From: Flavobacterium difficile
GTDB lineage: Bacteria; Bacteroidota; Bacteroidia; Flavobacteriales; Flavobacteriaceae
Assembly (NCBI RefSeq): GCF_011392115.1
Contig: NZ_JAAJBT010000002.1
Location: 496,001-560,000 of the forward strand
DNA length: 64,000 nucleotides
Reading direction: 5' to 3'
Below the pieces are notes generated by a model. The model was not told the origin of the DNA. It searched no databases and saw only the letters and a list, made by a program, of their open reading frames with translations. Below are positions 28,477 through 42,087 of the stretch, one piece after another (position 1 is the stretch's first letter; the number at the start of each line of letters is the position of its first letter). A program made the translations under genes and the position numbers.

Positions 28477-29226
28477 ATGGCCAAAAACACAAGTTTGTTT
28501 AGGATTGAAGGTACATTAGATAATGTGACTTTCTACAAAAGTGCTGACGGGTACTTAGTGCGCACCAAAGGTGGTGTAAGTAAAAAGAGAATTATGAATG
28601 ATCCGGCGTTTGTTAGAACCCGGGAAAACGGCAGAGAGTTTGGAAGAAGTGCAAGCTCTGGAAAGCTGTTGCGTGATGCTGTGGGGAGTTTTGTGTTTAA
28701 AGCGAAAGATAGTAAGCTATCGAGTCGCTTGATGAAAGTGATGTTTGACATTAAGAATCAGGATTTGGTATCGGTGCGGGGTGAACGTAATGTGGTGAAC
28801 GGTTTGGCTACTGCCACTGGTAAAGCCTATTTAAAGGGTTTCGATTTTAATATTCGAGCAACCCTTAAAAGTGTGTTTTTTAATCCGTTTGTAGTTGATG
28901 CGACAACTGGAATGCTAACTTTTACAGATTTGAATCCTATTGAAGCAATTCGTTTTCTAGAGGGTGCTACTCATTTTAGTTTGCAAAGTGGCTTTGTGAA
29001 TTTGGATTTTGCCACAGGCGCTTCAGCTATTACTTATAGTGCTGTTACAAATTTACCAATAAATGGTGCTGTTTCCACAATTACATTGACTCCAAGTGGG
29101 GTGCCGACCGGAACTGGTATTGAATTTGTTGTTTTGCTTCTTGAGTTTTTTCAAGAGGTGAATGGTGAACAGTATTCTTTGAATAACGGAGCTTTTAATG
29201 TACTAAATATTGTAGAGGTACTTTAA
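28477..29226 (+). CDS. Conserved Bacteroidota protein of unknown function (SLFRIEGTLDNVTFYKS family)
   Basis: 249 residues. The first ~120 residues (SLFRIEGTLDNVTFYKSADGYLVRTKGGVSKKRI, interrupted here only by reading) are basic and strongly conserved in a family I know from flavobacterial genomes; the second half is a predicted beta domain. No catalytic motif or signal peptide is visible. It ends in its own terminator and borders a repeat field. Role unknown; a link to genomic islands is suggested only by its neighbours. Confidence 0.6.
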   Translation: MAKNTSLFRIEGTLDNVTFYKSADGYLVRTKGGVSKKRIMNDPAFVRTRENGREFGRSASSGKLLRDAVGSFVFKAKDSKLSSRLMKVMFDIKNQDLVSVRGERNVVNGLATATGKAYLKGFDFNIRATLKSVFFNPFVVDATTGMLTFTDLNPIEAIRFLEGATHFSLQSGFVNLDFATGASAITYSAVTNLPINGAVSTITLTPSGVPTGTGIEFVVLLLEFFQEVNGEQYSLNNGAFNVLNIVEVL

Positions 29227-29276: not shown

Positions 29277-29305
29277 ACTCCCTGCTATGGTGGGGAGTTT
29301 TTTTT
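29277..29305 (+). terminator. Terminator after the 28477 gene
   Basis: Stem ACTCCC / GGGAGT with a 10-nt loop, then a run of eight T. The first repeat unit of the following array begins just after it, and the array ends with a second partial copy of the GGGGAGTTTTT side of this stem. Confidence 0.8.
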
Positions 29306-29310
29306 GTGGT

Positions 29311-29750
29311 GGATTGTGTGATTAGCTAGTGAGGTCCCTCCGATGTCGGGATGACAAGATAGTGGGGGTGGATTGTGTGATTAGCTAGTGAGGTCCCTCC
29401 GATGTCGGGATGACAAAAAAAGAGGGGATGACAAAAAAAAGAGGGGGTGGATTGTGGTGATGGATTGTGTGATTAGCTGGTGAGGTCCCTCCGATGTCGG
29501 GATGACAAAAAAAGAAGGGATGACAAGATAGTGGGTTGTGGATTATGTGATTTACTGGTGAGGTCCCTCCTGCGTCGGGATGACAAAAAAAGAGGGGGTG
29601 GATTGTGGTGATGGATTGTGTGATTAGCTAGTGAGGTCCCTCCTGCGTCGGGATGACAAAAAAAGAGGGGATGACAAGTTTGTGGGGGTGGATTGTGGTG
29701 ATGGATTGTGTGATTAGCTAGTGAGGTCCCTCCGATGTCGGGGAGTTTTT
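29311..29750 (+). repeat. Six-copy degenerate repeat field
   Basis: The 20-bp core GAGGTCCCTCCGATGTCGGG (or the variant ..CCTGCGTCGGG) occurs at 29331, 29390, 29482, 29560, 29633 and 29723, at 59-92 bp spacing. Cores are joined by AGGGGATGACAA, GGTGGATTGTG and TGATTAGCTAGT segments. The core can form an imperfect hairpin. The last copy runs into GGGGAGTTTTTG, a second copy of the preceding terminator's right arm, which suggests the field expanded inside the terminator. Purine-rich, no coding capacity seen. Confidence 0.85.
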
Positions 29751-29843
29751 GTTTTTTGTGTTTTAGCTTTTTACTGATTTCTAAATTAAACGTAACTATT
29801 TTATATGATTTCAGTTCGTTTTTAAACGAATTTTAGTTCTACT

Positions 29844-30156: not shown

Positions 30157-31674
30157 ATGAATTACATTACACACCTTACCACCTTTTTCGAAAAAGTTTT
30201 ACAAGAACCAGATTTCAAACCCATGCATATTAGCCTGTATTTGGCTATGTTTCAATCTTGGAACAAAAACCGCTTTCAAAATCCAATTGCTATTTCTAGG
30301 AATGACATGATACGAATTAGCAAAATTGGATCACCAACTCTATATGAAAATGGTTTAAAAAAATTAGATGAACAAGGCTACATTAAGTACCAACCTTCTG
30401 GTAGTCCATTTAAGCCAAGTTTGGTTCATGTTTTAGAATTGACTGAGGGATATCAGGTTAAAAAAATTAGAGTAAAAACCAGTTTAAAAATTGAACAAGT
30501 TGCTAAACAAGTTGTTAAACCTGTTACTGAACCCGTTGCTGAACAAGCACTAATAAAGCACTGTGCAAGTACTGAACAAGCTCTGGTATCATATATAAAC
30601 ATTAATAAACATTATAAACATAATAAAACTATTTATGGTCCACAAAAAAACATAAATGGAAAAAATGAAAATTCTTTTTTAAAAAATTCAGAAAAAGAAG
30701 AAAAAAAGTTGCGCGAAAAAAAGAAGTTGGAGTCCGAATTTAACCTTCCAATTTTAGAAAATGTCATCTCATTTTTTCAGGAAAACAACTACAGTCGAAT
30801 TGAAGCTACCACCTTTTTCAATTCTTTCGAAAAAAACGGATGGTTAGTGGGTGAACCTATCAAAATGGAAAATTGGAAAGCTGCAGCCCAAAACTGGATG
30901 CTTCATCAGGAAAACTGTTCCGCCCATTTTCGTAATCCTGAGCCAGCTAGTGTTGCGCCTAGCAGAAGTGTTGAAGCGCACCATCCTATGATTGGCCAAC
31001 TCGATACCCAGAACACGCTGCCGGGCAGTTGTACAACTTTTGAGGAAACTTTCGAGGATACAGCTACTGGTCGCATTTACCATTTTAACAGATGTGTTTC
31101 TTTTTTAACTTACCAAGGGAAAAAAAAATTTGGTCAGGCCTTCAAGATTTGTGAATCTGATTATTCAATTGTTCAACAGCTGCTTGTGTATGCCATTAGA
31201 GATGAAAAATCTGCTACTAAATTAAATATTAACTTAAACAAAGGTATTTTATTGTCTGGCAAAATTGGATGCGGGAAAACGGCTTTCATGCATTTGTTAA
31301 AACCTTTCTTTCCTCCAAAATTTGCTTACAAAATTACAACCTGCCGAGAAGTATCCTTTGCCTTTGCGAAAAAAGGTTCTGCAGCTTTGGAAATTTATAC
31401 CCCAAACACAAACCATCAGAACCGATTGACAGGCTATTGTTTTGACGATTTTGGCTCTGAACAACACATCAAACAATTTGGACACGATTCCAATGTAATC
31501 GCAAAAATAATTATGAGTCGCTACGCGCCATTTGTTGCCCACTCAACCGTTACCCATCTGACTACTCATTTATCAATGTTGGAAATTGAAACACTCTATG
31601 GCAGTATGTTTAGTTCTAAAATACTAGAAATGTTTAATGTTATTGCATTTAGTAATGAGTCAAGAGATAAATGA
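30157..31674 (+). CDS. Winged-helix plus AAA+ ATPase, helicase-loader/replication-protein-like
   Basis: 505 residues. The N-terminal ~110 residues (HISLYLAMFQSWNKNRF ... IAISRNDMIRISKIGSPTLYENGLKKLDEQGYIKY) form a winged helix of a type common in Bacteroidota mobile elements. A basic, low-complexity linker follows (~150-200, including KKNINGKNENSFLKN). The C-terminal domain has Walker A GKIGCGKT (~368-375) and a Walker B-like CFDDFGSE (~430), as in DnaC/IstB-type loaders. DnaA boxes lie upstream. I infer a replication or transfer initiation role for an integrated element; no integrase or relaxase is in the window. Confidence 0.65.
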   Translation: MNYITHLTTFFEKVLQEPDFKPMHISLYLAMFQSWNKNRFQNPIAISRNDMIRISKIGSPTLYENGLKKLDEQGYIKYQPSGSPFKPSLVHVLELTEGYQVKKIRVKTSLKIEQVAKQVVKPVTEPVAEQALIKHCASTEQALVSYININKHYKHNKTIYGPQKNINGKNENSFLKNSEKEEKKLREKKKLESEFNLPILENVISFFQENNYSRIEATTFFNSFEKNGWLVGEPIKMENWKAAAQNWMLHQENCSAHFRNPEPASVAPSRSVEAHHPMIGQLDTQNTLPGSCTTFEETFEDTATGRIYHFNRCVSFLTYQGKKKFGQAFKICESDYSIVQQLLVYAIRDEKSATKLNINLNKGILLSGKIGCGKTAFMHLLKPFFPPKFAYKITTCREVSFAFAKKGSAALEIYTPNTNHQNRLTGYCFDDFGSEQHIKQFGHDSNVIAKIIMSRYAPFVAHSTVTHLTTHLSMLEIETLYGSMFSSKILEMFNVIAFSNESRDK

Positions 31675-32009: not shown

Positions 32010-32061
32010 AAATTTTAAAATATATTTTAAAGAACAGTAAACACAATTAATTTTTTTGATT

Positions 32062-32466
32062 TTGAAAAAAGTAGAAGTAGTCGCAGCAATTATCCATTTT
32101 GAAGATGAAATTCTTTGTGTCCAAAGAGCAAAAAATAAATTGTCATATATATCTGAAAAATACGAATTTCCAGGTGGTAAAATTGAAGACAGCGAATCTC
32201 AAGAAGAAGCTCTAAGACGAGAGTTAGTTGAGGAATTAAATGTAATAGTCGACATACAATCTTTATTTTTAACAATTGTACATCAATATCCCGATTTTGA
32301 ACTAACAATGCATAGTTTCACATGCAAAGTAAATTCAAAAGAAATAACTTTAAATGAACATATTGCTTTTAATTGGTTAAAAGTAGATGAACTTGAAAGT
32401 TTGGATTGGGCAGCTGCAGATATTCCGATAGTAAAAAAATTAAAAAATAAAAAATATGCTCGATAG
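32062..32466 (+). CDS. NUDIX hydrolase (MutT-like)
   Basis: 134 residues from the TTG at 32062 (KKVEVVAAIIHFEDEILCVQR); a TTG six bases earlier is also in frame. The Nudix box GGKIEDSESQEEALRRELVEEL (split here: GGKIEDSESQ then EEALRRELVEEL) is complete, so it should hydrolyse a nucleoside diphosphate-linked compound; MutT-like members clean damaged dNTPs. Its last 11 bases overlap the start of the large helicase gene, which implies translational coupling and a shared task. No ATG start exists, so weak initiation is likely. Confidence 0.85.
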   Translation: MKKVEVVAAIIHFEDEILCVQRAKNKLSYISEKYEFPGGKIEDSESQEEALRRELVEELNVIVDIQSLFLTIVHQYPDFELTMHSFTCKVNSKEITLNEHIAFNWLKVDELESLDWAAADIPIVKKLKNKKYAR

Positions 32467-35400
32467 ATTTAAGGAAAGTTTATTTACCGGGTTTGTAGAT
32501 AAGGAAGTACTTTCTAATATAGCATATCAACCTGAATTGTTAGTTAATCAAAAAGAACCACCCAAGAAAATACTCACTACAATACTTAGGGAATTTGATT
32601 TGTGTACTGAATTTTATATTTCGGTTGCATTTGTCACAACTAGTGGAGTTGCAACTTTAATAAATCAACTAAAAATTTTAGAAGCTCGAGGTGTAAAAGG
32701 ATTTGTGTTAGTTTCACAATATCTTAATTTTACCCAACCAGAAGCATTAAGAAGATTAATGCATTTTTCTAATATAGAATTAAGAATACTTACATCCGAA
32801 AATGCCCACGCAAAAGGTTATATATTCAAAAATCAAACACATTACAACTTAATCGTAGGAAGTAGTAATTTAACTGCAAGCGCTTTATCTACAAATAAAG
32901 AATGGAACATTAAGTTGTCTGCCCTAGAAAATAGCGGTATTGTTCATAAAGTTCTTCAAGAATTTAAAGATGATTTCTATAAAGCTAAAGTAGTTACTCC
33001 CAAATTTATTGAGGAATATAATGAAGTTTACCAAAAACAGTATCTGCTAAGTAATGAGATTCTAAAAAACGAAAAAGAAGAAAATAAAATTGTTTTACCA
33101 AATATTATGCAAGAAGAGGCACTTGCAAATTTAGTAAAACTTCGACTAAAATCTAAAAATAAAGCCTTAATTATTTCGGCTACAGGCACTGGGAAAACAT
33201 ATTTATCGGCTTTTGATGCAAAAGCTTTTAACCCTAGGAAATTACTTTTTGTTGTACATCGATTGACTATAGCCAGAGAAGCAATGAAAACTTTTAAAAA
33301 AGTTTTTGGTAATTCGCGAAAAATGGGATTGTACTCTGGAAATATACAGGAATTGGATTGTGATTTCATATTTTCAACAGTTCAAACTATTTCAAAGGCT
33401 AATCATTTTGAACAATTTAGAGAAGATTTTTTCGATTATATTATCATAGATGAGACACATCGTTCTGCTTCTAAATCATACACGAGATTAATTAATTATT
33501 TCAAGCCAAAATTTCTCCTCGGTATGACAGCAACACCAGATCGTATGGATGGAAATGATATTTTTAAACAATTTGACCATAACATTGCATATGAAATAAG
33601 ATTAAATCGTGCTATGTCTGAAAATATGTTAAGTTCATTTCATTACTACGGAGTAACAGATCTAATAGTGGATGAAAAGTTAATCGATGATGCAACTAAT
33701 TTTAATCAATTGGTTTCTGATGAACGAATTAATCATATTATTGAAAAATCGAAATTTTATGGAAGCGATAATGGTATATTAAGAGGTTTGATATTTTGTT
33801 CACGAAAAGACGAGGCTAAAGAATTAGCTAGGTTATTAAACAAAAAAGGGTTAAAAACACAATCATTGACTGGTGATGATTCAGAGGAAATTAGAGCAAA
33901 AGCAATTGAACTTTTAGAAAGTGATAATTTAACACAAAAATTGGATTATATTATTACGGTTGATATTTTCAATGAAGGAATAGATATACCTAAGATAAAT
34001 CAAATTATAATGTTAAGACCAACAGAATCTGCGATAATTTTTATACAGCAATTAGGGAGAGGTCTCAGAAAAATTGAAGGAAAGGGTTATTTGACTGTAA
34101 TAGATTTTATAGGGAATTATCAAAATAATTATTTGATTCCCATAGCTTTATATGGCGATACATCTTACAACAAGGATACAATTCGAAAATTAATTACAGA
34201 GGGAAGCAAAATGATTCCGGGGGCTTCTACTATTAATTTTGATCAAATTACCAAAGAACGTATTTTTCAATCAATCGATTCAGCTAATATGCAATTATTG
34301 ACTGATTTAAAAAAAGATTATTATTTATTAAAATACAGGTTGGGAAGGACGCCTATGATGATGGATTTTGTTCAACAAAATGCAAGAGACCCATATGTTT
34401 TTATTGAATATTCTAAGTCATATTATAATTTTGTAATTAAAGTTGATAGTAATATAACTTCTAATTTAACAAAAGATGAAATTAAATTACTTGAACTTTT
34501 TTCAAAAGAAATAAATAATTCAAAAAGAGTAGAAGAAAGTATAATTTTGAAACATTTAATCGATGAGGGTAACTTAAGAATTTCAAAATTTAAAAAAATT
34601 ATTGAGAATAGGTATATGTATACAGTATCTGATGAAACAATTGCTTCTTGCCTTGTCAATTTGAATTTTGAATTTATTAGAGATAAAAAAAATAATAAAC
34701 TTCTAACAGTTAAAGAAATTTACGATTTAGATTTAGTATTCATTCATAACGATACTTTTTGCCTTTCAGATTCTTTTAAAAATTCCCTTCAAAATGTTGT
34801 TTTTAAAAATTTCCTTATAGATTCTACAGAGTATTCAATTTCACGATATGATGATCTATTCACTACTGAAAATTGGCAAAATGGTTTTATTTTATACAAT
34901 AAATATTCTAGAAAAGATGTTTTCAGAATTTTGAATTCAAGTGAAAATCCAGTTGCACAAAACGTTGGTGGATATTTAGTTAGTCAAGATAATTCTAATT
35001 GTCCAATATTTGTCAATTATCATAAAGAAGACCATATTTCAGAATCTACTAAATATGAAGATGAATTTGTAAATACCAGAGAATTTGATTGGATGTCTAA
35101 ATCTAACCGTAAAATAGAAAGTAAAGATGTACAATCTATCTTAGGTAAAAATGGAAAAATTCGGTTACCACTATTCATTAAAAAGAGTAATGACGAAGGT
35201 ACAGATTTTTATTACATGGGTGAAATGCAACCAAATTTGGACATGGTTATACAAGCTTCAATGAATAATGACAGGGGAGCAAAAGTATCTGTTGTAAAAA
35301 TAAGATTCAATGTCTTTCCACCAGTTTTGGATTCATTATATGATTATATAAATGATAATAGTTCTGAAACAACTCTAATGAAAGATGATAAAAATGTCGA

Positions 35401-35884
35401 AACTCCAGAACGGTTAGCTTTGGATTTAGAACCACAAAATGAACAAACAATTCCATTGTATAATTTTTATGCAGCAGCAGGTAGTTTTAGTGATTTACAA
35501 TCTGACAATGAATATTCTTTAATTAGTGCACCAAGTTTTATAAAAGACACAAAAGATTATTTTGCATGCAAAATTATTGGTGAATCGATGAATAGGGTTA
35601 TTCCAAATGGTTCAATAGCTTTATTTAAGTTTTACTCAGGTGGTAGTAGAAATGGCAAAATTGTATTGGTAGAAAATTTTGACATACAAGATTTAGATTT
35701 TAATTCAGCATTTACTGTTAAGACCTACACTAGCGAAAAAATTGTCACTGAAGAGGGATGGAGTCACACGAGAATTCAACTTTTACCTCACTCATTTGAC
35801 AAAACTTATTTGCCTATAAATATCAATGAAGATAATGGTGTTCAAATGAAAATTATTGGTGAGTATGTTTCTATCATTAAATAA
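32456..35884 (+). CDS. PLD-nuclease / SF2 helicase / DUF3427 protein with C-terminal LexA-S24 domain
   Basis: 1142 residues, domains in order. PLD-like nuclease (~20-190) with H118-A-K120 and GSSNLTASAL. SF2 helicase with SATGTGKT (241-248), DETH (332-335), GMTATPDRMDG (~356-366) and a second lobe with QQLGRGLRK (~532). A DUF3427-type region fills ~620-990. The last ~140 residues look like the LexA/UmuD S24 fold: Ala1008-Gly1009 in YAAAGSF, Ser1044 in GESM and Lys1089 in TVKTY, at spacings (35 and 45) close to LexA (34 and 37). I infer a DNA-processing defence or repair factor with a possible self-cleavage switch. Coupled to the NUDIX gene. Confidence 0.82.
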   Translation: MLDRFKESLFTGFVDKEVLSNIAYQPELLVNQKEPPKKILTTILREFDLCTEFYISVAFVTTSGVATLINQLKILEARGVKGFVLVSQYLNFTQPEALRRLMHFSNIELRILTSENAHAKGYIFKNQTHYNLIVGSSNLTASALSTNKEWNIKLSALENSGIVHKVLQEFKDDFYKAKVVTPKFIEEYNEVYQKQYLLSNEILKNEKEENKIVLPNIMQEEALANLVKLRLKSKNKALIISATGTGKTYLSAFDAKAFNPRKLLFVVHRLTIAREAMKTFKKVFGNSRKMGLYSGNIQELDCDFIFSTVQTISKANHFEQFREDFFDYIIIDETHRSASKSYTRLINYFKPKFLLGMTATPDRMDGNDIFKQFDHNIAYEIRLNRAMSENMLSSFHYYGVTDLIVDEKLIDDATNFNQLVSDERINHIIEKSKFYGSDNGILRGLIFCSRKDEAKELARLLNKKGLKTQSLTGDDSEEIRAKAIELLESDNLTQKLDYIITVDIFNEGIDIPKINQIIMLRPTESAIIFIQQLGRGLRKIEGKGYLTVIDFIGNYQNNYLIPIALYGDTSYNKDTIRKLITEGSKMIPGASTINFDQITKERIFQSIDSANMQLLTDLKKDYYLLKYRLGRTPMMMDFVQQNARDPYVFIEYSKSYYNFVIKVDSNITSNLTKDEIKLLELFSKEINNSKRVEESIILKHLIDEGNLRISKFKKIIENRYMYTVSDETIASCLVNLNFEFIRDKKNNKLLTVKEIYDLDLVFIHNDTFCLSDSFKNSLQNVVFKNFLIDSTEYSISRYDDLFTTENWQNGFILYNKYSRKDVFRILNSSENPVAQNVGGYLVSQDNSNCPIFVNYHKEDHISESTKYEDEFVNTREFDWMSKSNRKIESKDVQSILGKNGKIRLPLFIKKSNDEGTDFYYMGEMQPNLDMVIQASMNNDRGAKVSVVKIRFNVFPPVLDSLYDYINDNSSETTLMKDDKNVETPERLALDLEPQNEQTIPLYNFYAAAGSFSDLQSDNEYSLISAPSFIKDTKDYFACKIIGESMNRVIPNGSIALFKFYSGGSRNGKIVLVENFDIQDLDFNSAFTVKTYTSEKIVTEEGWSHTRIQLLPHSFDKTYLPININEDNGVQMKIIGEYVSIIK

Positions 35885-36273: not shown

Positions 36274-36867
36274 ATGAAAAGTGTTGAGGCTAAGATAGCA
36301 GAAAAAATAAAAAAAATTCCAAAAGGAAAACTAATATTTCCAGAGGATTTTCAGGAGTTAGGAACTTCTGAGGCAGTACGGTTAGCATTACATCGATTAG
36401 AAAAAGAAACTACCATTACAAGAGTAGCACAAGGAATATATGTTCGACCAAAAACCAGTAAATACATTGGTAAACTAACACCCTCCGCTGAAGAAGTCGC
36501 AGAAGCCATCGCAAAAAGAGATAGAATAAGAACACTTCCAACAGGTTCATACGCACTAAATGCATTGGGGTTGAGTACACAAGTGCCTATGAAAATTGTA
36601 TTACTTACAGACGGTTCTCCAAGAGAAATAAAGGTAGGTAAACGTACCATTAAGTTTAAAAAAACCACACCCAAAAACCTTTCGGCAAAAGGAGCTATTA
36701 GTAAATTAGTCATTCAAGCACTCAAAGAAATTGGACTAAACAACCAAACGCCTACAGAAGAAGAAAGAATAATAGAATTATTAAAAAAAGAAGATCCAAA
36801 AAATCTAATACACGACATTAAAATCGCACCAGTTTGGATTCAAAAAATAATGCAAAAAGCACTATAA
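36274..36867 (+). CDS. AbiEi-type antitoxin/regulator (DUF6088 family)
   Basis: 197 residues. The N-terminal winged helix (IFPEDFQELGTSEAVRLALHRLEKE, then ITRVAQGIYVRPK, split by reading) is the AbiEi-like DNA-binding part that contacts the operator just upstream. The C-terminal domain (TGSYALNALGLSTQVP, IKFKKTTPKN) is the antitoxin part. The stop codon is followed at once by the AbiEii start, so the pair is one operon. In known type IV systems the antitoxin acts without direct binding to the toxin. Confidence 0.85.
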   Translation: MKSVEAKIAEKIKKIPKGKLIFPEDFQELGTSEAVRLALHRLEKETTITRVAQGIYVRPKTSKYIGKLTPSAEEVAEAIAKRDRIRTLPTGSYALNALGLSTQVPMKIVLLTDGSPREIKVGKRTIKFKKTTPKNLSAKGAISKLVIQALKEIGLNNQTPTEEERIIELLKKEDPKNLIHDIKIAPVWIQKIMQKAL

Positions 36868-37905
36868 ATGACAAAAATAAATTTCTTATCGATACCAAAT
36901 CCCGACAAAAAAGTCATTTACCAACAACTAAGCGATGAATCAAAAATTCCACCTTTTGCCGTAGAAAAAGATTGGTGGGTAGTCCAAATATTGGCTACTA
37001 TTTTTGAAATGCCAATAGGTAAACATTTAGTATTCAAAGGCGGAACATCACTAAGCAAATCATGGAATCTGATAAGTCGTTTTTCAGAAGATGTAGATTT
37101 AGCCATTGACCCAAAATTTCTTGGTTTTGAAGGCGAACTAAAAAAGAAAGACATTACAGCCTTACGTAAAGCAGCAAATCAATACATATCAAATACATTC
37201 TATCCAGAGCTAATACAAAAAATGATAGAAAAAGGATTCACAAATCTAAACTGGGACATAATAAACACCCAAGAATCCGACCAAGATCCAAAAATAATAC
37301 TAATGTATTATCCTAACGTAATTGAATCCGTTGGGTACATACAACCAAAAGTCCAAATCGAAATAGGCTGTCGTTCCTTGAGAGAACCACAAAAAATAGC
37401 AGAATTTAATGCTTTAGTAGACGAATATTATCCTAATACAAATTTTGCAATGCCAAGTATAAAAGTTCCTACAGTGGTCCCTGAAAGAACATTTTTGGAA
37501 AAAATATTTTTATTACACGAAGAATTTAGCAAACCAACACAAGCCATAAGAATAGAAAGATTAAGCCGACACTTATACGATATCTATCAATTATCAAAAA
37601 CCGAAATAAAACAAAAAGCTTTAAACGATAACGAATTATACGAGACCATAGTCAATCACAGACACAATTTTACCCGAATCAGCAAAGTAGATTACAACAA
37701 GCATCAACCTCAAACTATAAATCCAATTCCACCAACAGAAGTTATAAAAGAATGGGAAGCAGATTATAATACCATGTTGACAGAGATGATTTATGACGAA
37801 GCTCCAACATTTCAAAAATTAATTGATGAAATAGCACAATTAAAAACAGAAATAAACAACTTAAATTGGAAAATGAAAACAGAATTTCCATTGCCAAAAT
37901 CATAA
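36868..37905 (+). CDS. AbiEii-type nucleotidyltransferase toxin
   Basis: 345 residues. Nucleotidyltransferase motifs are visible: VFKGGTSLSKSW (~55-66) with the GS/GT helix, and FSEDVDLAID (~71-80) with the two catalytic aspartates, plus VQIEIGCRS (~165) as the third acidic position. Homologous toxins block growth by adding nucleotides to tRNA and give abortive phage defence. A C-terminal helix may be coiled coil (LIDEIAQLKTEINNLNWKM). It directly follows AbiEi. Confidence 0.87.
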   Translation: MTKINFLSIPNPDKKVIYQQLSDESKIPPFAVEKDWWVVQILATIFEMPIGKHLVFKGGTSLSKSWNLISRFSEDVDLAIDPKFLGFEGELKKKDITALRKAANQYISNTFYPELIQKMIEKGFTNLNWDIINTQESDQDPKIILMYYPNVIESVGYIQPKVQIEIGCRSLREPQKIAEFNALVDEYYPNTNFAMPSIKVPTVVPERTFLEKIFLLHEEFSKPTQAIRIERLSRHLYDIYQLSKTEIKQKALNDNELYETIVNHRHNFTRISKVDYNKHQPQTINPIPPTEVIKEWEADYNTMLTEMIYDEAPTFQKLIDEIAQLKTEINNLNWKMKTEFPLPKS

Positions 37906-38183: not shown

Positions 38184-38398
38184 AAAAAAAGACACTTTGG
38201 TTTTCATAAAAGAAGAAAAAAACATTCCGTTTTTAAGGTACGTCTCTTGAAAATGGGGTAAGCTCACTAATAAAGAGGAAAAAACACCCCACCCTACGGG
38301 CACCCCTCTTAAAAAGAGGGGAAGTTGGAACGGTAATTTTACACAATACTTCCACTCCTCGGAGGGTTGCCTGAAAGGCGGTGTGGAAAATGTTCCGG
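38184..38398 (+). repeat. Left copy of a ~210-bp direct repeat flanking DUF559
   Basis: Starts with AAAAAAAGACACTTTGG and contains ACGTCTCTTGAAAATGGGG, the palindrome CCCCTCTT-AAA-AAGAGGGG (38303-38321), CACAATACTTCCACTCCTCGG and the GCCTGAAAGGC hairpin. It is nearly identical to 38917-39128 apart from a handful of substitutions. Confidence 0.88.
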
Positions 38399-38492: not shown

Positions 38493-38918
38493 ATGAAAAC
38501 AGAAATAGTAACACATATAAACGGCAATCCTATTTTCAGAAGAAATATACCCATTCTGCCAGCCAATCAAGCATTGCGAAGTAGGGCTCGGGCACTACGA
38601 AAAGCTGGCGTTTTATCGGAGGTTATTTTCTGGAGACAAGTTCGTGCTAGAAGTTTTTGGAATATCGATTTTGACAGGCAACGAATTATTGGAAATTTTA
38701 TTGTCGATTTTTATGTAAAATCCTTAGGATTAATTATTGAAGTTGATGGCTCTAGTCATAATGATAATGAAGATTATGATGCAATGAGAGAAGAATTTCT
38801 AATTAATCAGGGATTGAATGTTTATAGAATTTCTGATTTTAGAGTAAAACAAGATCTAGATAATGTAATGAAAGAATTAGAAAATTATATTATAGCAAAT
38901 TATGGCGTATCAGAGTAA
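38493..38918 (+). CDS. DUF559 Vsr-like nuclease domain protein
   Basis: 141 residues. The segment EVIFWRQVRARSF, then IIGNFIVDFYVKSLGLIIEVDGSSH (FIVDFY Asp; IEVDG Glu/Asp), followed by MREEFLINQGLNVYRISDFRV, matches DUF559, related to Vsr/PD-(D/E)XK endonucleases. The N terminus (HINGNPIFRRNIPILPANQALRSRARALRKAG, seen in parts) is an added basic segment. It stands alone between near-identical repeats, and the right copy starts at its stop codon. I infer a nuclease linked to the spread or upkeep of the flanking repeats. Confidence 0.85.
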   Translation: MKTEIVTHINGNPIFRRNIPILPANQALRSRARALRKAGVLSEVIFWRQVRARSFWNIDFDRQRIIGNFIVDFYVKSLGLIIEVDGSSHNDNEDYDAMREEFLINQGLNVYRISDFRVKQDLDNVMKELENYIIANYGVSE

Positions 38919-39128
38919 AAAAGACACTTTGGTTTTCATAAAAGAAGAAAAAACATTCCGTTTTTAAGGTACGTCTCTTGAAAATGGGGTAAGCTCACTA
39001 ATAAAGAGGAAAAAACACCCCACCCTACGGGCACCCCTCTTAAAAAGAGGGGAAGTAAGAACGGTAATTTTACACAATACTTCCACTCCTCGAAGGGGTG
39101 CCTGAAAGGCGGGGTGGAAAATACTCCG
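38917..39128 (+). repeat. Right copy of the DUF559-flanking direct repeat
   Basis: Same content and order as 38184-38398: AAAAAAGACACTTTGG, the ACGTCTCTTGAAAATGGGG segment, palindrome at 39034-39052, CTCCTCGAAGGGGTGCCTGAAAGGC. It begins right at the end of the DUF559 gene. Confidence 0.88.
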
Positions 39129-40013: not shown

Positions 40014-40589
40014 ATGGCAATTAATTTACAAAAAGGGCAAAAAATTGATATTGGATTATCAAAAATTACCATTGGTTTAGGATGGGATCCTAATGAGGGT
40101 ACGGGTCATGATTTTGACTTAGATGCTTCAGCAATTATGATAGATGAAAATAGAAAATTACTTGGAGAAGAGTATTTTATTTTTTACAATAATTTGAATT
40201 CACCCGATGGTTCGCTGACTCATACAGGAGATGATCCAACTGGAGGAAATAGCGATGGTGATGATGATGAAGCAATTAAAGTTGACTTAAATAAGGTTCA
40301 TGAAAGAGTTCAAGAAATTTTGTTTGTAGTAACAATTGAAGATTTTGAAAGAAGAAAACAGAATTTCGGTCAAGTTAGAAACTCATACATAAGAATTGTT
40401 GACGATGCTTCTAATACCGAAATTGCAAAATATGAATTAGACGAAGATTTTTCAATTGAAACAGGTGTAGAGTTTGGTAGACTTTACAAGCGAAATGGAC
40501 AGTGGAAATTTGAAGCTTCTGGAATTGGATATAAAGCGGATTTAGGATACTTTTTGGAAAAATATTATTCAGGTCAAATAATTAAATAA
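40014..40589 (+). CDS. terD: TerD family protein (first copy)
   Basis: 191 residues, the calcium-binding TerD fold of tellurite/stress-response loci. Motifs: MAINLQKGQKIDI, IGLGWDPNEGTGHDFDLDASAIM (seen in parts), GSLTHTGDDPTGGNSDGDDDEA with the acidic metal-binding loop, and RKQNFGQVRNSYIRI. The end FEASGIGYKADLGYFLEKY is typical. It is the first gene of a co-directional operon running to ~50684. Confidence 0.93.
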   Translation: MAINLQKGQKIDIGLSKITIGLGWDPNEGTGHDFDLDASAIMIDENRKLLGEEYFIFYNNLNSPDGSLTHTGDDPTGGNSDGDDDEAIKVDLNKVHERVQEILFVVTIEDFERRKQNFGQVRNSYIRIVDDASNTEIAKYELDEDFSIETGVEFGRLYKRNGQWKFEASGIGYKADLGYFLEKYYSGQIIK

Positions 40590-41276
40590 TTGGAAATAAT
40601 AAAGTCAATAGATTTTTTAGTCGGACTTGGTTATAAACATATTTCATTTGATTTATGGTTGACATTGATTAAATCAAATCCAAATTATAAATCGAAGAGA
40701 AATCAATTATTTAAAGATTTTTTTGAAATAGAGTATAACATTGAAATAGTATCTCAAAAAGTTAGATACTATGATGTTGTTTGTAATTCCATCAATGAAA
40801 AGACTGGAAAAAATATAGATACAGATGAGATTTATCTTTTAATATTGAGTTCATTAGGTTATGATTTAAACAAATTGAACCGAAAAATGTTAGAGGAGTT
40901 TTATAAAGAATCGGAAAAGATTTTTTTTGAAAATGAACCAATGTTTATTAATAGTAATACACATCAAATTTTTAACGATTTAAAAAATAATGGTATAACT
41001 ATGAATGTTTTGAGTAATACAGGTTTCATTAAAGGAAAAACCTTAAGGTTGTTATTAGATAAAAATAATTTAGGTGGTTTTTTTGACTTTCAGATTTATT
41101 CTGATGAGTGTAATTATTCAAAACCTAATATTGAAATTTTCAACTTAGTTTATGATAGAATAGCGATTAAAAATAGTTTTTCTAAAAGCCAAGTTCTCCA
41201 CATAGGTGATAATTTGATAGCAGATTGTGATGGAGCAAAAGCTTTCGGATTTTCAACTTTACATTTTAAAAATTGA
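40590..41276 (+). CDS. HAD-superfamily hydrolase of the Ter operon
   Basis: 228 residues; the only workable start is the TTG directly after the terD stop. HAD motifs: FDLWLTL (D21 nucleophile; the usual second Asp is W23), MNVLSNTGF (Ser, motif II), YSKPNIEIF (Lys, motif III) and HIGDNLIADCDGAKAFGF (motif IV). Loss of the second aspartate occurs in other HAD subfamilies and may change the reaction. In Ter loci a HAD phosphatase with a PRTase is part of a predicted nucleotide-like metabolite module (Anantharaman, Iyer and Aravind). The end reaches the PRTase start region. Confidence 0.82.
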   Translation: MEIIKSIDFLVGLGYKHISFDLWLTLIKSNPNYKSKRNQLFKDFFEIEYNIEIVSQKVRYYDVVCNSINEKTGKNIDTDEIYLLILSSLGYDLNKLNRKMLEEFYKESEKIFFENEPMFINSNTHQIFNDLKNNGITMNVLSNTGFIKGKTLRLLLDKNNLGGFFDFQIYSDECNYSKPNIEIFNLVYDRIAIKNSFSKSQVLHIGDNLIADCDGAKAFGFSTLHFKN

Positions 41277-41280
41277 CAAA

Positions 41281-42087
41281 TTGAATAAATCATATAGTTT
41301 ACATAAAATAACTTCCAAAAGTAATTTAACCTTTAATCCTTCTGATTATAGTTGGTTTAAATTTGGTGATAAAGACTTTGCTAAAAAATTTGCTAAAGAA
41401 CTTTTCGATGGATTTATAATTAGTAACAGTAAAAAAATACTTGAACAAAATGAAATTATTATTTTGCCAAGTCCATATTTATCTATACCAACTGCTTCCA
41501 ATTTTTTGTGTTTTTATTTTAAAGAATTTCTAAACAAATTTCTATTTGAAAATAATAAAAAAGCAGCTATTGAATCAAAAATTTACAGAAATCAAACATA
41601 TGTTACAGATTATGGGAATCTTGATTTTGAAGATAGAGTTAAATTAATTTCAAATGACACCTATTATATAGACAAAGAATTTATAAATGGGAAATTTTGT
41701 CTTTTTTTAGATGATATTAAAATCACTGGTAGTCATGAGCATACAGTGAACAAAATCCTAAGTCAATATAATGTAAAAGGAGACTTTTACTTTCTTTATT
41801 TCGCTGAATTAGTAAACAAAGACATACATCCAAATATAGAAAATTACTTTAATTATTTCTCAGTAAAAGGTATTGAAGAAATTATTGATGTAGTTAACAG
41901 AGACAACTTTCAATTCAATACTCGAATTGTAAAGTATATTTTAAATTTAAATGAGGATGAATTAACGCTTTTGTTGAATAGTATAAATTCTCTCAGAAGA
42001 GAAGAGTTATTCCTATTATCAATTAGTAACAATTATCATCAAATAAGAGAATACAATAAAAATTTGACAACTATAAAAACAATTTAA
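41281..42087 (+). CDS. Phosphoribosyltransferase-like protein of the Ter operon
   Basis: 268 residues from the TTG at 41281; a longer form from a GTG at 41227 would overlap the HAD gene by 50 bases and is less likely. The PRPP-binding loop is FCLFLDDIKITGSHEHT (two acidic residues then TGS), the type I PRTase signature. Upstream, IILPSPYLSIPTASNF fits the strand-loop that binds pyrophosphate. The base substrate is not clear. Pairing with HAD and TerD suggests synthesis of a modified nucleotide-like compound; that is published inference for the family, not proven here. Confidence 0.75.
   Translation: MNKSYSLHKITSKSNLTFNPSDYSWFKFGDKDFAKKFAKELFDGFIISNSKKILEQNEIIILPSPYLSIPTASNFLCFYFKEFLNKFLFENNKKAAIESKIYRNQTYVTDYGNLDFEDRVKLISNDTYYIDKEFINGKFCLFLDDIKITGSHEHTVNKILSQYNVKGDFYFLYFAELVNKDIHPNIENYFNYFSVKGIEEIIDVVNRDNFQFNTRIVKYILNLNEDELTLLLNSINSLRREELFLLSISNNYHQIREYNKNLTTIKTI

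Follow-up and report, generated by a model that had tools for sequence, protein, structure and literature searches.

The closest described relative of the system discussed here is SauUSI of S. aureus, a dimeric enzyme built from a PLD nuclease, an SF2 motor, a coupler and an SRA domain that shreds DNA containing 5-methyl- or 5-hydroxymethylcytosine (PMC7913695). In this enzyme, the region recognized as DUF3427 corresponds to the coupler plus the SRA methylcytosine reader, for which six pocket residues have been named (PMC7913695). Furthermore, HsdR of the type I system EcoKI is destroyed by ClpXP when unmodified sites arise in E. coli's own DNA (PMC4231737, PMC11109961), and S24-type autocleavage exposes C-terminal degrons for proteases such as ClpXP (PMC7101444). 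Here, we describe a gene pair in a stretch of 64,000 nucleotides from Flavobacterium difficile (contig NZ_JAAJBT010000002.1, positions 496,001 to 560,000 of the forward strand; hereafter the window), in which a putative SauUSI-type restriction enzyme ends in a predicted LexA-like S24 self-cleavage module and overlaps a NUDIX hydrolase gene, with the same module apparently recurring on four classes of nucleases. None of SauUSI, S24 domains and restriction alleviation is new in itself; what may be new is the fusion of an S24 module to a SauUSI-type enzyme together with its reappearance in four classes of nuclease, of which no description was found in open PubMed Central papers, an absence that is itself a weak indication.

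The larger gene (32456 to 35884, plus strand, like all features of the pair) encodes 1142 residues and had been read in an earlier note on this DNA as a nuclease-helicase of the DUF3427 helicase family. While the PLD and SF2 domains are indeed present, its identity has to be corrected to a type IV restriction enzyme: the closest solved structure is SauUSI (PDB 7clg, E 5.6e-227), a PDB sequence search aligns residues 2-925 collinearly with SauUSI 5-915, and the PADLOC model mREase_IV (type IV methyl-directed restriction) matches residues 2-965 (2e-236). The chain starts with a PLD-type nuclease domain (residues 63-172, 32642 to 32971; PLDc_2, 1.9e-10) that holds an HxK...GSxN motif at 118-138, followed by the SF2 helicase-like motor with its first RecA-like lobe (ResIII, residues 216-363, 33101 to 33544; 1.4e-39; DETH at 332-335) and its second lobe (Helicase_C, residues 443-538, 33782 to 34069; 2.1e-13; QxxGRxxR at 531-538). 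The DUF3427 match as such stands (residues 682-965, 34499 to 35350; 2.3e-77), but by alignment with SauUSI it denotes the coupler and the SRA target-recognition domain. These families, as well as NUDIX and Peptidase_S24 (see below), all score above the Pfam curated cut-offs, and both the PLD catalytic motif and the helicase motifs are intact according to a motif scan and the invariant columns among 35 aligned proteins. When the alignment of the 5-methylcytosine pocket with SauUSI is read by hand, Y831, F841, D858 and W868 are kept and I842 is replaced by V, whereas M829 of SauUSI, which is inserted into the DNA gap, has become G. As judged from these matches, residues 1-965 constitute a SauUSI-type type IV, 5-methylcytosine-dependent restriction enzyme; given the collinearity and the mostly kept pocket, this body probably reads methylcytosine and shreds foreign methylated DNA.

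Behind the SRA domain, a linker (residues 966-999, 35351 to 35452) that is mostly of low confidence in AlphaFold2 models leads to the S24/LexA-like module (residues 1000-1137, 35453 to 35866), which Pfam Peptidase_S24 matches with E 3.7e-7 (30.3 bits, curated cut-off 23.3). The residues that the earlier note had read from the open reading frame are all in place, namely the predicted scissile bond Ala1008-Gly1009 (35477 to 35482), cleavage of which would yield an N-terminal product ending in ...YNFYAAA, the predicted nucleophile Ser1044 (GESM, 35585 to 35587) and the predicted general base Lys1089 (TVKTY, 35720 to 35722). By sequence, the connection to solved LexA proteins is weak: a single-sequence search of the PDB with the S24 part found no LexA protein, and a profile of 18 modules reached LexA only at E 0.059, with an unrelated phage protein ranking higher (0.025). 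In turn, tblastn retrieved phage repressors with a best E of 1e-7 (34 records, E up to 0.1). The predicted structure had been proposed as a check of the S24 assignment and speaks for it: an AlphaFold2 model of residues 973-1142 (15-row alignment; predicted local distance difference test, pLDDT, of 78) returned exclusively LexA, lambda CI or UmuD at Foldseek ranks 1-33 of the PDB, with LexA on a RecA filament at the top and lambda CI bound to a RecA filament also among the high-ranking matches. VIA-align of this model against LexA gave a Z of 14.1 and a root-mean-square deviation of 2.6 over 121 residues, as compared to a Z of about 5-6 for signal peptidases, with the model's alignment including phage repressors that could pull it towards LexA. 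Full-length AlphaFold2, run without phage repressors, produced a similar strand order in the S24 region with a pLDDT mostly below 50, which therefore lends weak support. Taken together, the C-terminal module is predicted to adopt the LexA/S24 fold and, with its cleavage site and dyad, fits the self-cleavage module suggested in the earlier note. Since Pfam at E 0.01 found no helix-turn-helix in the 1142-residue protein, it is an S24 fusion and not a LexA/CI repressor.

The conservation of the self-cleavage set was followed in 32 fusions, i.e., 8 SauUSI, 19 SLFN-g3, 3 HsdR, 1 Res and 1 (L162; loci are given by L numbers) that is cut by the contig end and counted as a fusion of unassigned class, as its body lies beyond that end. 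The count includes the Halomonas locus L112 despite a frame break between module and body as well as both of the near-identical L152 and L153, and leaves out L151 (a 203-residue piece with the module and a VTAG site) and repressor-size proteins. Repeat fetches of one gene were counted once (for example, L082, L114 and L130 equal L116; L115 and L148 equal the window; L117 equals L083, L129 equals L110 and L156 equals L001). Ser, Lys and the P1 Ala are each present in 32/32 fusions, which bears out the expectation that the dyad is conserved in homologues, and all three are among the 16 fully invariant columns out of 150. P1' Gly is found in 30 and P2 Ala in 29 of the fusions, the spacings amount to 34-38 residues from Ala to Ser and 44-45 from Ser to Lys, and the predicted N-terminal product would end in (A/V/I)(A/S)A in 31/32 cases and in AVA in L167. 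By this comparison, the self-cleavage set appears intact and under strong constraint across four nuclease classes. This matters for a scenario without any cleavage, in which the S24 part, by dimerization or by docking on RecA filaments, would recruit the nuclease to DNA that is single-stranded or being replicated. LexA-type domains do bind RecA filaments, as the solved complexes among the fold matches illustrate, and two of the 32 fusions have lost the P1' Gly; such a role, however, would not require the invariance of Ser, Lys and P1 Ala in all four classes, and we consider it very unlikely.

When the window's own genome was searched, the module matched the C-terminal end of a second protein with 47% identity; this protein of 730 residues is composed of a GIY-YIG nuclease, an SLFN-g3 (DUF2075) helicase and S24, each above the Pfam cut-off. 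Two genome searches supplied its relatives. Across the phylum, the module was detected at E 1e-12 or better in 18 of 395 genomes, and in the class around one matching genome in 6 of 195, all six already seen. Assignment of all 19 members to the SLFN class rests on BLAST to L116, with Pfam run on two of them. The module additionally terminates type I HsdR proteins (HSDR_N, SWI2_SNF2, T1R_D3) in L160, L161 and the viral-collection contig L168, and in the type III locus L167 a ResIII protein that follows a Mod gene ends in it. On the Halomonas plasmid (L112), it stands after a DUF2075-type gene behind the frame break. In a midpoint-rooted tree, a supported branch (98/98) separates the modules from 12 phage repressors; seven SauUSI modules group together (99/100) with the module of L002 outside, so that there may have been more than one swap of the module. 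Based on these comparisons, one S24 subfamily appears to be common to four classes of nucleases with an ATP-dependent motor. Besides the one Halomonas record, tblastn against plasmids gave weak matches annotated as LexA- or XRE-type regulators, and a viral scan with a single module sequence gave nothing useful. Module searches in groups reached via the loci found it in 1 of 395 genomes, the match being a 207-residue open frame, and further group searches, run without a positive control, found it in 0/289, 0/245 and 0/6 genomes. Two of these loci deserve mention in their own right. L160 (6036-14719) and L161 (1-8570) encode HsdM, HsdS, a PtuA-like ATPase, a PtuB-like HNH protein and HsdR-S24 in this order, i.e., a Septu-like pair inside a type I system, where the Ptu assignments are NCBIfam matches below cut-off and L161 was judged by its open frames. 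The Res-S24 protein of L167 (3277-6435) has the site AVAT as compared to AAAG/VAAG elsewhere, perhaps a drifting or altered cleavage site.

Among SauUSI relatives, counted over the best 80 of 121 related loci, the module occurs in two (L001 and L002); as the contig ends before the module position in five loci (L005, L025, L045, L046 and L059), these are 2 of 75 judgeable loci. Further S24-bearing SauUSI proteins are encoded in L117 (the same gene as L083), L152, L153, L154 and L159, for a total of eight including the window. In 8/8 of these proteins, the module is encoded in the same open frame as the body, by which a frame artefact was rejected, and in a tree of 47 cores all eight fall into one clade (95/100). 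The S24 part is thus an add-on to the SauUSI core.

The smaller gene of the pair (32062 to 32466) encodes a MutT/NudG-like NUDIX hydrolase that overlaps the restriction gene by 11 nucleotides; its TTG start at 32062 was picked by comparison with relatives, the mechanical open reading frame starting two codons earlier, at 32056. It matches Pfam NUDIX (7.3e-17) and the PADLOC phage-defence candidate family PDC-S07 (1.9e-47), holds the Nudix box pattern, and its closest PDB entry is 3gwy, a 'putative CTP pyrophosphohydrolase' (1.3e-41). A NUDIX gene lies within 300 nucleotides of 55 out of 80 SauUSI genes (40 upstream, 15 downstream), on the same strand in 47 and on the opposite strand in eight cases, one of the eight being a 71-residue piece (L047); in 8/8 S24-bearing SauUSI loci it overlaps the start of the restriction gene. 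The earlier proposal of NUDIX as a partner of the S24 switch did not hold, as NUDIX genes adjoin SauUSI genes with and without S24: no S24 was found in 53 of the 55 NUDIX-adjoined loci. In terms of gene neighbourhood, NUDIX therefore belongs to the SauUSI core and not to S24. The SLFN-g3-S24 class is accompanied by a short MazG-like gene in 19/19 cases (18 directly upstream), and in the Halomonas SLFN-S24 locus it lies just downstream of the module. Pfam MazG-like scores were above cut-off in 4/4 neighbours tested, and two tested against the PDB were nearest to DCTPP1/RS21-C6 and to the unnamed pyrophosphatase 4qgp, respectively. Both Orf135 (NudG, a NUDIX) and RS21-C6/DCTPP1 hydrolyse the 5-methyl form of deoxycytidine triphosphate (5-methyl-dCTP), which may primarily come from degraded methylated DNA (PMC10742078). 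Two unrelated families of one known activity stand beside a methyl-dependent nuclease and a possible one, which suggests that the NUDIX and MazG-like neighbours prevent modified nucleotides from entering the host chromosome. Annotation of a Priestia plasmid shows MutT, DUF3578, nucleotide pyrophosphohydrolase and DUF2075 genes in a row, where no S24 module was found; pool-cleaning neighbours therefore do not need S24 in this setting either. Single SLFN-g3 genes additionally neighbour GmrSD (L118), Mrr (L119) or a C5 methylase (L129), and the SLFN-S24 gene of the window's own genome is followed by a 683-residue dCMP/cytidine deaminase-domain protein (L116, 6504-8555), another nucleotide-pool enzyme.

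We see about an even chance that the gene pair represents a SauUSI-type enzyme with a RecA-fired S24 fuse that removes the nuclease, together with a NUDIX guard. Breaks in the host DNA would lead to filaments of RecA on single-stranded DNA, to which the S24 module would bind and thereupon cut its own chain at Ala1008-Gly1009. The resulting nuclease-motor fragment would end in -YNFYAAA, resembling the transfer-messenger RNA (tmRNA) tag and LexA-type autocleavage degrons, and would be destroyed by ClpXP or a similar protease, which would amount to restriction alleviation built into the enzyme itself. NUDIX, in turn, would remove the 5-methyl- (or hydroxymethyl-) dCTP that is set free when foreign DNA is shredded and thereby keep the chromosome from turning into a target. 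We infer that cleavage occurs, that RecA triggers it, that it switches the enzyme off and what NUDIX hydrolyses. The tmRNA tag of the same genome, GENTYALAA, ends in YALAA, and this genome also encodes RecA and a ClpX zinc-finger protein.

Another conceivable scenario is activation upon damage or infection, in which the S24 part (S24 dimerizes in LexA) would hold the nuclease inactive until RecA-driven cleavage frees an active SauUSI fragment. UmuD is activated by this very cleavage (PMC8565304), the freed fragment 1-1008 would be near the size of S24-less SauUSI enzymes, and SauUSI itself is active. However, restriction is generally expected to strike as DNA enters, when little RecA filament has yet formed, and the new end looks like a degron rather than a stable end. 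Activation also fits the HsdR and Res fusions poorly, as unmodified host sites may exist just during damage repair, and damage-triggered activation of these enzymes would presumably endanger the chromosome. We thus regard activation as unlikely and prefer self-removal, because HsdR and Res rely on host methylation, so that an off switch would be needed and an on switch fired by damage would be harmful. For enzymes of this kind, the need to remove the nuclease once host sites have lost their modification is established (PMC4231737, PMC11109961); as read from the related sequences, the comparative evidence leans to cleavage turning the enzyme off.

Several points weigh against a RecA-fired off switch. 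Most SauUSI relatives manage without the module, which occurs in 2/80 loci (75 of the 80 reach far enough to show it), and in the core tree L084, from the same genus as the window, sits inside the S24 clade and lacks it. P1' Gly is replaced in two fusions (Ser in L128, Thr in L167). Among 47 S24 proteins of repressor size in a loose alignment, 26 likewise carry Ala at P2, so that the -AA end may simply be what S24 sites prefer in general. The S24 part of the full-length model, in its low pLDDT range, says nothing of docking on the core. A scan of the window for the Bacteroidota SOS-box motifs GGA-N5-TCC and CTAA-N5-TTAG (taken from PMC8565304) found no such box upstream of the operon. For the NUDIX part, NCBIfam scores do not separate NudG (80.4 bits, cut-off 156) from MutT (79.4 bits, cut-off 97.9), and PDB scores are 49.4 and 53.6 bits, respectively; as the window NUDIX is indistinguishable from MutT by score, its substrate is put forward as a hypothesis. 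Alleviation of EcoKI, moreover, can be induced by a recombining plasmid with no need of LexA cleavage (PMC11109961), and alleviation elsewhere therefore works without an S24 step. A type IV enzyme also needs alleviation less plainly than types I and III, because its own chromosome normally holds no targets. Finally, IrvR is an S24 protein with RecA-independent autocleavage (PMC7101444), and self-cleavage that either proceeds slowly and constitutively or is set off by the translocating motor could limit the lifetime of the enzyme in a similar manner. In line with the latter, ClpXP targets HsdR of EcoKI during translocation (PMC4231737), but the best fold matches, LexA, CI and UmuD, are all RecA-dependent (PMC8565304), which in our view leaves a RecA-independent trigger distinctly improbable. 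Independent of these considerations, control of the operon by a known Bacteroidota SOS box was rejected, as neither GGA-N5-TCC (8 sites versus 5.4 expected) nor CTAA-N5-TTAG (3 versus 1.9) is enriched in the window; one of the CTAA-N5-TTAG sites (32669) lies inside the larger gene.

The restriction gene is directly followed by an AbiEi (DUF6088)/AbiEii type IV toxin-antitoxin pair (36274-37905), and by eye a similar-looking pair of open frames comes after the Halomonas S24 nuclease (L112, 7122-8808). Further downstream, two 181-nucleotide direct repeats (38217-38397 and 38948-39128, 96% identical) flank a DUF559 nuclease-like gene (38493-38918), with further 45-nucleotide repeats within and between them, an arrangement reminiscent of a small cassette that is mobile or has been duplicated. 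TerD, HAD and PRTase_3 genes stand in a row at 40014-42087, i.e., a Ter-type stress cluster after the defence genes. Upstream of the pair, six imperfect copies of a repeat of about 102 nucleotides (66-93% identical to the reference copy) occupy 29283-29776, between the open reading frames at 28477-29226 and 30157-31674.

Generalized to all classes, our proposal reads that ATP-dependent type I, type III, type IV and GIY-YIG/Schlafen nucleases use a hitherto undescribed S24 subfamily as an exchangeable fuse, fired by RecA, through which the enzyme destroys itself; in the type IV and Schlafen cases, the fuse would be paired with an enzyme belonging to one of the known types of 5-methyl-dCTP hydrolase. 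This we put forward tentatively, with somewhat less than even confidence. What is known of self-protection from ATP-dependent restriction enzymes comes largely from the type I enzymes of E. coli. If the proposal is true, restriction alleviation would be written into the enzyme itself, type IV and Schlafen systems would have two independent guards against self-restriction, and nucleases would join repressors and polymerase subunits as carriers of S24 self-cleavage. Having a LexA-like cut site inside the enzyme would moreover offer a clean handle, as the point mutants S1044A, K1089A and G1009D should separate restriction from control, and a testable reason is suggested for the presence of nucleotide-pool cleaners beside methyl-dependent nucleases.

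Compared with known systems, the window enzyme shares the PLD nuclease, SF2 motor, coupler and SRA reader with SauUSI, which at 953 residues ends after the SRA domain and has no S24, whereas the window enzyme adds it; the word Nudix does not appear in the main text of the SauUSI structure paper (PMC7913695). Both genes are matched by PADLOC as mREase_IV and PDC-S07, with the mREase_IV match stopping at residue 965 and thus before S24. The genes next to SauUSI and Schlafen-type nucleases resemble the enzyme types NudG/Orf135 and DCTPP1/RS21-C6, and in the portions of the literature text covered no link of either to defence was found. The module is like LexA, UmuD and lambda CI in its predicted fold, Ala-Gly site and Ser-Lys dyad, but is carried by a nuclease-motor protein instead of a DNA-binding domain or a polymerase subunit. 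The alleviation of EcoKI by ClpXP would have the same purpose as proposed here, namely the removal of a hazardous ATP-dependent nuclease at times when the host's DNA is endangered; for its HsdR, the relevant passages report that no degron was found (PMC4231737) and describe no autocleavage (PMC4231737, PMC11109961), whereas the trigger of the window enzyme would be internal.

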